Of a DNA stretch of 64,000 nucleotides, positions 9,054-36,250 are shown one piece after another. Both the position numbers and the translations under genes were made by a program. Each line of letters opens with the position of its first letter. The first letter of the stretch is position 1. Location: contig NZ_JACHOU010000004.1 in assembly GCF_014206975.1 (NCBI RefSeq), positions 248,001 through 312,000 on the forward strand, in the 5' to 3' direction. The notes below the pieces were generated by a model that saw only the letters and a list, made by a program, of their open reading frames with translations, had not been told where the DNA came from and did no database searches. Source of the DNA: Aminobacter aganoensis. Its GTDB lineage: Bacteria > Pseudomonadota > Alphaproteobacteria > Rhizobiales > Rhizobiaceae.

Positions 9054-9659
9054 ATGATGCGGCTTTCAATCTCTCATCTGTTCCTGGCGGGCCTGGTATC
9101 GATCTCGACCGTCGGCGCCGACCCCAGGCCGAGCCATGCAGCGCCGGGCACGAAGCGCATCGACATCTGCCATGGCTATGGCTGCGCCTTTCGTTCGCGC
9201 CTCGACCTCGGGCCGGGCGACGCGAAGCGGTTCGCCTCCATTCTGGCCGCGGGCCGGTCCTCGCCGAAAGCCGAGCGTGCGGCGATCGCACAGGCCGTTG
9301 CGTATTTCGAGAAGCGGGCGCAGCAGGTGACCGGGGTACGTGACGCACCCCAGTCGAAATTCGGCGCTTCGAAGATCAAGGGCCAGATGGATTGCGTCGA
9401 CGAATCGACCAACACCGACGCGCTGCTGCGCTATCTCGGCGGGCGTGGCCTGCTCAGGCACCACAAGGTCGAAGCGAAGACCTCGCGCGGCTTCCTGCTC
9501 GATGGCCGGTACCCGCACTGGACAGCCGTTGTCCGCGCACCCGACGGCGTGAAGTGGGTGGTTGATTCCTGGTATGCCCCGATGGGCGGCGCGCCAGACA
9601 TCATCCCGCTCAGCGACTGGAAGCAGCGCGGCGTGCTCGAAAGCGGCGCGCTGAACTAG
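9054..9659 (+). CDS. Secreted protein with possible transglutaminase-like Cys-His-Asp triad
   Basis: 201 residues with an N-terminal signal peptide (hydrophobic core [14 protein letters not shown]). I do not recognise a named family. After cleavage it has two close cysteines (C39, C44) and later QMDCVDES (C114), PHWTAVV (H155) and KWVVDSWY (D171). Cys, then His before a beta strand, then Asp before an aromatic residue is the order of the triad in transglutaminase-like cysteine proteases. A periplasmic peptidase or transglutaminase-fold role is only inferred. Either of two adjacent ATGs (9054, 9057) may be the start. Confidence 0.7.
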
Positions 9660-9713
9660 AGCAGGCCTCGACACGGGCTGGAGCGGGATGCTTTGACAGG
9701 CCCAAAAACAACA

Positions 9714-9820
9714 ACACCCGCCGGGGGAGGAGATCCGGCGGGTGTCGTTTTTGGTGGTCAGCCTTCTGGGAGGAGGAAGCTGACCTATTCGCCTTTGCCG
9801 GGGAGGAGGTCGGCGCGGGC
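9714..9820 (-). ncRNA. Hairpin triplet C (distal, with terminator-like end)
   Basis: Three hairpins at 9791-9820, 9756-9785 and 9714-9745. The last has a perfect 11-bp stem and, on the minus strand, is followed by TGTTGTTTTT, so it can act as the intrinsic terminator of the whole transcript. Its loop has one mismatch to the motif. Confidence 0.8.
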
Positions 9821-9866
9821 AGAATTCTTTTCGCCAGTTCAAAGAGGGCGAAGCTCTCGGGTAACA

Positions 9867-9974
9867 ACACCTGCCGGGGGAGGAGGATCCGGCAGGTGTC
9901 GTTTTTGGTGGTCAGCCTTCTGGGAGGAGGAAGCTGACCTATTCGCCTTTGCCGGGGAGGAGGTCGGCGCAGGC
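9867..9974 (-). ncRNA. Hairpin triplet B (middle)
   Basis: Three hairpins at 9945-9974, 9910-9939 and 9867-9899. All three loops contain an exact CCTCCTCCC on the minus strand. It is nearly identical to triplet C, including the spacer that carries AGAATTCTTTTCGCC, so B and C look like a recent tandem duplication. Confidence 0.8.
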
Positions 9975-10022
9975 AGAATTCTTTTCGCCAGTTCAAAGAG
10001 GGCGAAACTCTCTGGGGTAACG

Positions 10023-10130
10023 ACACCCGCCCGGGGAGGAGGTCGGGCGGGTGTGTTAGGGTGGTCAGCTTATCGGGAGGAAGAAGCTGACCGGATCCGT
10101 CATGGCCGGGGAGGAGGTCGGCGTTGACGG
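10023..10130 (-). ncRNA. Hairpin triplet A (promoter-proximal)
   Basis: Three hairpins: 10097-10130 (CCGTCA/TGACGG stem, 2x2 internal loop, GCCG/CGGC), 10063-10092 (9-bp GGTCAGCTT/AAGCTGACC stem, variant loop GGGAGGAAG on the plus strand) and 10023-10054 (ACACCCGCCC/GGGCGGGTGT stem). This triplet begins 11 bases after the stop of the second DUF1127 gene and is the most diverged of the three. Confidence 0.8.
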
Positions 10131-10140
10131 AAAGCTTGAA

Positions 10141-10281
10141 TTAGATTGCGCGGCGGGCGATCGACTGGATCTCGCCACGATTGATGCCGAGATCGGCAAG
10201 CTGGCGGTTCGACAGACGGCCAAGCTCGTTCACCGTCTCGCGATAAGCGCGCCAGTTACGGTAAGTGCGGAGCAAGTTCAT
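10141..10281 (-). CDS. DUF1127 small protein (second copy)
   Basis: A 46-residue basic protein starting MNLLRTYRNWRAYRETV and ending ARRAI, with the DUF1127 core LxRLSNRQLADLGI. It is too short for most gene finders. It is a clear paralogue of the 46-residue gene just upstream, differing mainly in the last third. DUF1127 proteins of this size, such as CcaF1 of Rhodobacter sphaeroides, bind RNA and influence sRNA maturation. The hairpin array starts 11 bases downstream on the same strand. The Shine-Dalgarno is weak (AAGAGAAC). Confidence 0.88.
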   Translation of the reverse strand: MNLLRTYRNWRAYRETVNELGRLSNRQLADLGINRGEIQSIARRAI

Positions 10282-10309
10282 TTTAGTTCTCTTTTCGGTT
10301 CGGACAGGT

Positions 10310-10324
10310 GGGTCCAGTGGACCC
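10310..10324 (-). other. Hairpin between the two DUF1127 genes
   Basis: GGGTCCA, one base, then its exact complement TGGACCC, in the 51-base gap between the DUF1127 genes. No T-run follows, so it is more likely an mRNA processing or stability element than a terminator. Confidence 0.5.
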
Positions 10325-10332
10325 GGTTTCGG

Positions 10333-10473
10333 TTAGATGGCTTTACGCGCGACGAAGTGGATGTCGCTGCGGGTGATGCCGAGGTCGGTCAGTTCACGGT
10401 TCGACAGGCGGCTCAACTCGGAGACAGTGTCACGGTAGCGGCGCCAGTTGCGGTAGTTGCGGATCAGGTTCAT
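10333..10473 (-). CDS. DUF1127 small protein (first copy)
   Basis: A 46-residue basic protein beginning MNLIRNYRNWRRYRDTV and ending ARKAI, with the core LSRLSNRELTDLGITRSDI typical of DUF1127. ATG at 10473 is chosen because it gives the same length and start as the paralogue downstream; the frame stays open further upstream, but that part does not match the family. It is the first gene behind an RpoH-like promoter and heads the transcript into the hairpin array. An RNA-binding role is inferred from the family. Confidence 0.9.
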   Translation of the reverse strand: MNLIRNYRNWRRYRDTVSELSRLSNRELTDLGITRSDIHFVARKAI

Positions 10474-10518
10474 CTTCGTTTTCCGTTCGTCTTCATTTCT
10501 CTTCTGTGTACGGGGCGT

Positions 10519-10547
10519 AGATAGGATGGCCTTGCTCAAAATTGAAG
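10519..10547 (-). promoter_or_regulatory. RpoH-type (heat-shock sigma) promoter of the DUF1127-hairpin locus
   Basis: On the minus strand: CTTCAA (10547-10542), a 16-base spacer, then CCTATCT (10525-10519). The alphaproteobacterial RpoH consensus is CTTGAA-N15-17-CCTATNT, so there is a single mismatch. The -10 lies about 45 bases before the first DUF1127 start. Confidence 0.65.
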
Positions 10548-10693
10548 CGCTATGCTCGCATGGCAGCAATGCGTTTTGTGCATTGCAGCATTAATGGACA
10601 TTAAGGCTTCGGTCATGATTGTGACCGAATCGGAAATTCGCCATGAGGACAACGGCTTGGCCGTGACAGGCAGCCGTCAGGGGGACGCGATTT

Positions 10694-11797
10694 ATGGCGA
10701 GCTACGCCACCAAGGTGAAGAGCGACATCGGCCGCTGGGTCGAAATCGGGCTGCTGGACCGGGCAACCGCGGACGCGCTTGTTCGTGACGTCGAGGACAA
10801 TGAGCGCAGGGGCCTGAATTTCGGTTCGATCCTCGCGATCATGGCGGCGCTGCTGTTTGCTGCTGCCATTCTCATTCTCGTCGCCGCCAATTGGGAAGCC
10901 ATCCCGCGCATTGCCCGCGTCGGCGCGCTGTTTGCCGTCATCTTCATCGGCTATGTCGGCGGCGCCTTGCTCAAGCAGCGTGGCCAAGGTGGTTTCGGCG
11001 AAGCGCTGTGGCTGGTCGCGGCCGCGGCTTTCGGCGGTTCGATCGCGCTGATCGGGCAGATGTATCACTTCGCCGGCGATGAAAGCGCGGCCGTCGTCAC
11101 CTGGTGCATCGGCACCGCGATTGCCGCCGCGGCGCTGCGCTCCAACGCCCTGACCGTGGCCGCCGTTGGCATCGCCGATGCGTGGCTGGTGCTGAAGGGG
11201 TTCGATATCTTCCGCCGCACGGAGTTTCCGCATCTCTTCATTGTGTTCCTGGCGGTGTTCTGGGCGCTGTCGTTCTGGACGCAGAGCCGCGCTGCCCGGC
11301 ATCTGATCGCCCTGTCTGTCATTCTATATGCAGTGCTGCTCGGCTTTAATCACGAGTCGCTGGAGGTTGGAGTGGTGCTTGCACTGGTCTCGGCGGTGCT
11401 TCTCGCCGTTGCTGCCCTGGCCCCGGATGCCGTGGAACGCATCGTCCAACTCGGCGGACGGCTGCCTTTGCATGCATTGATCGGCTTTATTTCCGGCATC
11501 GGCATGGTGCAGGTCGACCAGGTCGAGAACGGCGGCTTTGTCATTGCGGCCGCGGTTGCACTGGCGGTCATCGCAGCGGTCATCGTCTTCCTTGGCCGCG
11601 AGAGCCGCGGCTTGCGCTGGATTGCCTATCTCGGCTTCGCCTTCGAACTGGCCATCGTCTATCTCGTCACTGTCGGTTCGATGCTGGGCACGGCCGGCTT
11701 CTTCTTCGCAGCCGCAATAATCCTGGCAGGGCTCGCTTATGCGATCATCCGCATCGAACGGCGGATGAGGCCCGAGCCGGTCCGAGGAGCAGCATGA
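10694..11797 (+). CDS. DUF2157 multi-spanning membrane protein
   Basis: A 367-residue protein of the DUF2157 family. The first 45 residues are soluble, with a WVEIGLLDRATADALV helix, and the rest is a series of about ten hydrophobic helices. Function is unknown. Its stop overlaps the start of the next gene by four bases (ATGA). DUF2157 and GDYXXLXY proteins are commonly paired, so the two may act as one membrane unit. It is divergent from the DUF1127 locus across a 220-base gap. Confidence 0.85.
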   Translation: MASYATKVKSDIGRWVEIGLLDRATADALVRDVEDNERRGLNFGSILAIMAALLFAAAILILVAANWEAIPRIARVGALFAVIFIGYVGGALLKQRGQGGFGEALWLVAAAAFGGSIALIGQMYHFAGDESAAVVTWCIGTAIAAAALRSNALTVAAVGIADAWLVLKGFDIFRRTEFPHLFIVFLAVFWALSFWTQSRAARHLIALSVILYAVLLGFNHESLEVGVVLALVSAVLLAVAALAPDAVERIVQLGGRLPLHALIGFISGIGMVQVDQVENGGFVIAAAVALAVIAAVIVFLGRESRGLRWIAYLGFAFELAIVYLVTVGSMLGTAGFFFAAAIILAGLAYAIIRIERRMRPEPVRGAA

Positions 11798-36103: not shown

Positions 36104-36250
36104 CGTTGTTGCTCCTCCCGAAGGGCGCTGCGGACCGGGCGGGTGAGATGCTCGTCTGCCTATTCGTTGGCCAGGAAGAGAAACCGGGAAAAAGACTTCC
36201 TGTTCATCGGCGCCGCCATGCCCGGTTGACGCAGTCCGCAGCTTCTATCG

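Follow-up and report, generated by a model that had tools for sequence, protein, structure and literature searches.

A CIN1-type locus in the genus Aminobacter with two DUF1127 genes, three tandem ar14 RNAs and a predicted LsrB-type promoter site

Small DUF1127 genes followed by hairpins with anti-Shine-Dalgarno (anti-SD) loops are known from Rhodobacter sphaeroides, and a locus with two such genes and nine such hairpins in Aminobacter aganoensis raises the question of what kind of system it is and how it is controlled. A preliminary description of the 64-kb stretch of DNA analysed here (the window) read the locus as an expanded, RpoH-controlled version of the Rhodobacter system. We asked what the array is, how common the arrangement is among relatives, which regulator its promoter points to and how the RNA might act.

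Anatomy and family of the array

The locus occupies the minus strand. Behind a promoter region come two DUF1127 genes of 46 codons each and then a hairpin array of 0.4 kb that ends near 9704. The locus is flanked by two plus-strand ORFs, one convergent (9054-9659) and one divergent (10694-11797). DUF1127 gene 1 lies at 10333-10473 and gene 2 at 10141-10281, both on the minus strand. The two ORFs match PF06568 with 61.5 and 61.8 bits (Pfam gathering cut-off 23.3), in agreement with the tandem 46-residue DUF1127 genes of the preliminary description.

Matches to CCTCCTCCC with zero or one mismatch occur nine times at 9725-10117 on the minus strand, inside predicted loops. The loop motif CCUCCUCCC is exact in seven hairpins and carries one mismatch in two (TCTCCTCCC at 9725-9733 and CTTCCTCCC at 10075-10083). 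On both strands of the window together there are seven exact copies, every one of them inside the array stretch, and when one mismatch is allowed the motif is not in excess across the window as a whole (22 matches versus 19.9 expected). Thus, the exceptional feature of the motif is its clustering, not its window-wide count. The 436-nt array folds with a predicted energy of -201.3 kcal/mol, compared with -131.0 +/- 5.8 kcal/mol for 100 dinucleotide shuffles (z = -12.2), and the mean unpaired probability of the nine motifs in the modelled whole transcript is 0.80-1.00. Motif search, fold and open loops thereby uphold the nine motif-loop hairpins first reported.

Comparison with Rfam revealed that the array is three ar14 (RF02344) sRNAs in tandem, all on the minus strand and all above the gathering score of 58.8 bits: copy 1 at 10018-10136 (75.4 bits; hairpins at 10096-10131, 10063-10092 and 10018-10058 in the fold), copy 2 at 9862-9981 (73.8 bits) and copy 3 at 9709-9827 (73.1 bits). 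Sequence comparison indicates that copies 2 and 3 are near-identical and copy 1 is clearly diverged, so the "three near-identical triplets" of the preliminary description hold for two of the three. The fold also contains two hairpins, free of the motif and absent from the preliminary description, that sit between the triplets. The first (TTTCGCC..GGCGAAA, 9983-10007) is followed by the A/T-rich linker AAAAGAATT at 9977-9985, and the second (TTCGCC..GGCGAA, 9830-9852) by the same linker at 9823-9831. The last hairpin (9714-9745) and the T-rich tail TGTTGTTTTT form a terminator-like end of the array (9704-9745, minus strand).

The ar14 family comprises NfeR1 (Smr14C2) and the "cuckoo" RNAs, and a 2011 study described relatives that have two, three and four hairpins (PMC3927594). 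The Aminobacter locus shares with ar14/NfeR1 the three hairpins per unit, the CCUCCUCCC loops, the variable stems and a TGCA-N6-GCAT promoter box; it differs in having three tandem units behind two DUF1127 genes, and the genome also has a solo copy. CIN1 has been defined as a DUF1127 gene with cuckoo RNAs (Reinkensmeier and Giegerich 2015, cited in PMC10253847). CIN1 and the window both have a short DUF1127 gene immediately before tandem CCUCCUCCC hairpins on the same strand, and we found no class-level distinction between them, as two DUF1127 genes and two or three triplets are common in the relatives fetched. Given these likenesses, the array and its DUF1127 genes are a member of the known CIN1 locus type, in the genus Aminobacter.

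The ccaF1-CcsR1-4 locus of R. sphaeroides likewise has a small DUF1127 gene co-oriented with anti-SD hairpins and an end terminator. It encodes one 71-aa DUF1127 protein and four sRNAs behind an RpoH promoter (PMC10253847, PMC12501420), whereas in Aminobacter there are two proteins of 46 aa and three units of three hairpins each, and the promoter region has an LsrB-type site. On the strength of the three ar14 matches, the co-oriented DUF1127 genes and the CIN1 arrangement, we agree with the earlier assignment of both loci to the same general type.

Elsewhere in the window, Rfam families are represented by an Atu_At1 (RF02496) sRNA (36132-36241 minus, 100 bits) and a THF-II riboswitch (RF02977; 56929-56967 minus, 59.7 bits).

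Occurrence and conservation among relatives

A search with DUF1127 gene 2 gave 263 relatives, of which the best 80 supplied the loci compared with the window; a DUF1127 gene is present in this sample by choice. Two DUF1127 genes, recognized with our own pattern, are found in 79 of the 80 fetched loci, and motifs occur downstream in all 80; the exception (L086) has one recognized DUF1127 gene and six motifs. With the window included, exact motifs number six in 51 of 81 loci and nine in 13, and fewer than five in seven, some of which are cut by contig ends. The window's own genome contains seven ar14 matches at E <= 0.001, five of them above the family cut-off, and five DUF1127 (PF06568) matches. 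All ten genus genomes searched (own included) have ar14, and in each of the ten the scanned locus combines the two DUF1127 genes with a motif cluster. All ten also contain solo ar14 copies, upstream of which our own pattern detects no DUF1127 gene.

In the family as a whole, 116 of the 121 genomes searched have an ar14 match, which is above the cut-off in 108. Thirteen tandem ar14 loci from other family members were picked by eye among the matches listed. Five of these have a DUF1127 gene upstream together with the promoter box (one box with a mismatch), and three of the five, under other genus labels (L183, L185 and L195), have two DUF1127 genes and nine exact motifs. No DUF1127 gene was found upstream of the other eight with our own pattern. 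Another layout in the family (L186-L193) has ar14 copies a few hundred bases apart, with LysR-type boxes near or between the copies in several cases and DUF1127 between or after them in some. We therefore rejected the idea that the locus is expanded relative to known systems: the relatives fetched commonly pair two DUF1127 genes with two or three triplets of the ar14 type, and arrays of nine motifs are also seen under other genus labels. The window locus is typical rather than expanded, and two of its loops are imperfect.

Triplets were called by the motif with at most one mismatch, and loop conservation among them is thus partly by choice. At least one triplet was found in 77 of the 81 loci and two or more in 71; the four loci with no triplet (L072, L077, L079 and L095) do not enter the stem, tail and SD counts. 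For the stem analysis, arms were anchored on the motif in 165 triplets from the 77 loci. Mean stems over distinct arm pairs are 7.5, 10.5 and 13.9 pairs for hairpins 1-3, and swapping 3' arms between loci reduces them to 5.5, 8.4 and 12.2 pairs. Standard pairs make up 79.9%, 87.8% and 82.2% of cells at the register, versus 31-41%, 31-67% and 42-47% in slid registers. By the share of paired cells, the ar14 stems vary in sequence yet stay paired in all three hairpins, and the check on pairing in relatives proposed in the preliminary description favours the hairpins. The loop is exact in 164, 159 and 156 of the 165 triplets, figures that partly reflect the one-mismatch calling rule.

Changes on both sides of a pair are less uniform. 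They occur at 9 of 9, 10 of 10 and 5 of 11 pairs in hairpins 1, 2 and 3, compared with 4-7 in the slid controls for hairpin 1, 5, 5 and 9 for hairpin 2 and 5, 5 and 5 for hairpin 3, and related sequences inflate such counts. Hairpin 3 has the fewest distinct arm pairs among the three. By this count hairpin 1 is supported, hairpin 2 barely and hairpin 3 not. In loci with two copies, TCGCCAGGGTCG forms the arm of the first hairpin in 47 of 54 first copies, and 46 of 54 second copies have TCGTCAAAGCCG there. Because these arms are copy-specific, we rejected recent homogenization of the repeats as a general rule.

A run of at least four T after the third hairpin is found in 59 of 76 last triplets, 3 of 72 first triplets and none of 17 middle triplets. 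Inner third hairpins were therefore rejected as terminators. A terminator consensus scan returned no minus-strand site; the scan accepts loops of up to 8 nt, and that of the last hairpin has 10 nt. On the plus strand the same scan lists the 9714-9745 hairpin as a terminator, and in that orientation it could serve the convergent ORF at 9054-9659.

The spacers between triplets, in the window and its relatives, share the core TTCGCC..GCGA (66 of 88); a purine stretch followed by TT ends 85 of the 88, and AAAG[AG][AG]ATT ends 59. A hairpin of at least 6 bp is present in 84 of 88 spacers, near the chance level of 76% of shuffles. Thus, it is the conserved core that argues for a spacer hairpin, and core and linker are the better signs. 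The plain reading of these features is one long transcript with a single terminator and linkers that could be cut, perhaps by RNase E in analogy to ccaF1-CcsR (PMC10253847).

The promoter and its candidate regulator

Upstream of DUF1127 gene 1, the window contains the box TGCA-N6-GCAT (TGCACAAAACGCAT, 10569-10582 minus), the form bound by LsrB in the NfeR1 promoter of Sinorhizobium meliloti at -72 to -60 (PMC10746234). Overlapping it is GCAT-N3-TG-N3-T (GCATTGCTGCCAT, 10560-10572 minus), an exact match to the LsrB/VtlR consensus, which lies at -61 to -49 in the S. meliloti promoter PabcR1 (PMC8844928). With a start guessed near 10512, the window elements fall at about -70 to -57 and -60 to -48, respectively. 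This LsrB-type site, absent from the preliminary description, belongs to the most strongly conserved part of the aligned upstream regions (80 loci), which lies above the -35 element. In 79 of the 81 loci, counting the window, both patterns match exactly, and the remaining two (L077 and L079) have one mismatch in the GCAT half. A stricter pattern matched 73 of the 81 loci, and the distance from the element to the -35 is 21 nt in all of these. About 28-45 bp upstream of the box we spotted by eye a palindrome, CGGTCA-N6-TGACCG (10610-10627 minus).

The core promoter is less easily assigned. The window has CTTCAA, with no CTTG, as its -35 element (10542-10547 minus) and CCTATCT as its -10 element (10519-10525 minus), 16 nt further on. 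Between 9600 and 10750, a plain sigma-70 scan turned up nothing promoter-like. Published rhizobial RpoH forms are CTTGAA-N15-16-CCTATAT and, for RpoH2, CTTGCC-N15-16-CCTATCT (PMC4843759), so the -10 element and spacing of the window fit and the -35 element does not. Of the 79 loci scored, 69 have CTTTTA and seven have CTTCAA at the -35, and CTTG occurs in none; the -10 is CCTATTT in 35 and CCTATCT in 33.

Alternatively, the locus may be an RpoH operon responding to heat or oxidative stress, like ccaF1-CcsR, with no role for LsrB. The -10 element with its 16-nt spacing matches the RpoH2 form and is near that of RpoH1, and the ccaF1-CcsR1-4 promoter is itself an RpoHI/RpoHII promoter (PMC10253847). 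Against this stand the lack of CTTG in all 79 scored loci and the conservation of the upstream LysR-type site, which is higher than that of any other element; a solo ar14 promoter has a similar site. We consider this alternative unlikely. Of the "RpoH-like promoter" in the preliminary description, the -10 element and spacing stand and the -35 does not, and heat control through RpoH is correspondingly weakened. RpoH may nevertheless contribute, since 68 of the 79 loci have CCTATTT or CCTATCT as their -10. Judged on sequence, LsrB-type control probably ranks ahead of RpoH at the window promoter, with LsrB binding as a prediction.

The genome encodes a candidate for the regulator. A 298-aa LysR gene follows the only trxB of the genome above the family cut-off, and its product matches PDB 9HH1, the structure of LsrB, with E 1.8e-141 (next PDB match 3e-34). 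We identify it as the trxB-linked LsrB orthologue of this genome. An ar15/AbcR-type sRNA (L155, 6522-6637 minus) lies about 0.8 kb downstream of it, a neighbourhood that recalls vtlR-abcR2 of Brucella (PMC12595884); the exact box was not found in the region upstream of this ar15. Brucella VtlR activates three DUF1127 genes (BAB1_0914, BAB2_0512 and BAB2_0574) as well as abcR2 (PMC12595884), and in Agrobacterium VtlR binds the promoter of the small-protein gene atu1667 and activates the gene (PMC7486931). The latter is a DUF1127 gene, given that it is the stated orthologue of BAB1_0914. The Aminobacter genes resemble these in being small-protein genes with a related consensus and, as predicted for Aminobacter, LysR-type control; the passages that describe the Brucella and Agrobacterium genes mention no hairpins behind them.

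An extended 14-base LsrB-type pattern has three exact matches in the 5.76-Mb own genome: the window promoter, the promoter of a solo ar14 (contig 15) and a site on contig 4 that has no motifs nearby. Five more sites match with one mismatch, making eight versus two for the reversed pattern; surroundings were read for five of the eight, including two of the five mismatched. The own solo ar14 (L001) has a similar promoter, in which the box carries one mismatch. One of the mismatched LsrB-like sites (L166, contig 15 near 2715) precedes a 55-aa basic DUF1127-like ORF that is absent among the PF06568 matches of the genome. Another such site (L167) in the own genome precedes the ORF of an MFS-like transporter. 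When one mismatch is allowed, its pattern occurs at least once in each of the ten genus genomes (L172-L182), compared with no match for the reversed-pattern control.

Proposed action of the RNA and alternatives

Given these analyses, we favour, with fair confidence, an LsrB-activated operon of the CIN1 type with a terminator at its end, processing in the spacers and anti-SD silencing of target mRNAs. LsrB, a redox- and nutrient-related LysR regulator, would bind about 50-70 bp upstream of the start and activate transcription. Polymerase would then pass the two genes and all inner hairpins without stopping until the last hairpin and its T run, a step suggested by sequence and conservation. Cuts in the conserved A/U-rich linkers may release three-hairpin sRNAs, perhaps through RNase E with DUF1127 helping, as for CcaF1-CcsR. 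By homology with NfeR1, the unpaired CCUCCUCCC loops would pair with GGAGG-like start sites of target mRNAs and block translation. S. meliloti NfeR1 silences ntrB and two transporter mRNAs via redundant anti-SD loops at translation starts (PMC10746234; also reviewed in PMC7143759), and the sequestration of GGAGG sites predicted in the preliminary description agrees with that work. Perfect 9-nt complements near an ATG are hardly in excess in the own genome (four, versus two for the reversed-pattern control).

It is also conceivable, though improbable, that the loops slow all translation, with no defined targets, as a bulk SD sponge or as competitors of the 16S tail. There are nine loops per transcript, all predicted to be open, and the four perfect sites near an ATG (control two) suggest that specificity by long pairing is low. 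However, a sponge would need very high RNA levels, and the NfeR1 motifs silence particular mRNAs, those of ntrB and transporter genes (PMC10746234).

A further alternative would make the DUF1127 proteins the active products, with the hairpins serving chiefly as a 3' region for protection or processing of their mRNA. In its favour, the proteins show very high conservation. Members of the DUF1127 family may bind RNA, as CcaF1 does, or partner proteins such as PhoR and SsrA; those of Agrobacterium act on PhoR, and CcaF1 can replace them in pstS control (PMC12501420). By analogy, the Aminobacter proteins may act on proteins such as PhoR and SsrA instead of RNA. A DUF1127 gene of S. meliloti is under attenuation control through an upstream ORF (PMC12218461). 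We nevertheless regard a 3'-region role as quite unlikely, as the stems vary while remaining paired around a fixed loop and all ten genus genomes have the solo ar14 copies that our pattern finds without DUF1127 upstream.

We also compared the SD sequences at the start sites of the DUF1127 genes in these operons. An SD core of at most 3 nt precedes 75 of 76 gene 1 starts and all 77 gene 2 starts, compared with 15 of 40 control genes; a core of at least 4 nt is found at 1 of 76, 0 of 77 and 25 of 40, respectively. The control is one Mesorhizobium plasmid stretch with 41 annotated CDS, of which one of 96 bp was left out. Weak SD sequences could spare the DUF1127 genes from their own loops, but the counts give only a hint, the starts being related by descent and the control coming from one stretch. 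A weak SD or none is also seen at three of five DUF1127 genes with no array behind them. For this reason we give very little credence to a self-exempting brake. In that reading, redox stress would act through LsrB to produce a polycistronic RNA whose anti-SD loops, up to nine in number, lower initiation at strong SD sites, while the linked DUF1127 genes, with SD cores mostly of 3 nt or less, stay translated and help mature the RNA.

For the favoured LsrB-activated operon, we expect from the sequence that the array would supply several anti-SD sRNA units under LsrB control. A link between LsrB and CIN1 was not found in the literature searched, and it may be in print, the 2015 cuckoo and 2021 CcaF1 papers lying outside the search. 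The locus ties the control of DUF1127 genes and NfeR1/AbcR sRNAs by LsrB/VtlR to the pairing of DUF1127 with anti-SD RNAs in CIN1. If this is true, the same protein-RNA module would be under RpoH control in Rhodobacter and under LsrB control in Aminobacter and Mesorhizobium, and the latter two would be convenient for testing the action of DUF1127 proteins on their own sRNAs.
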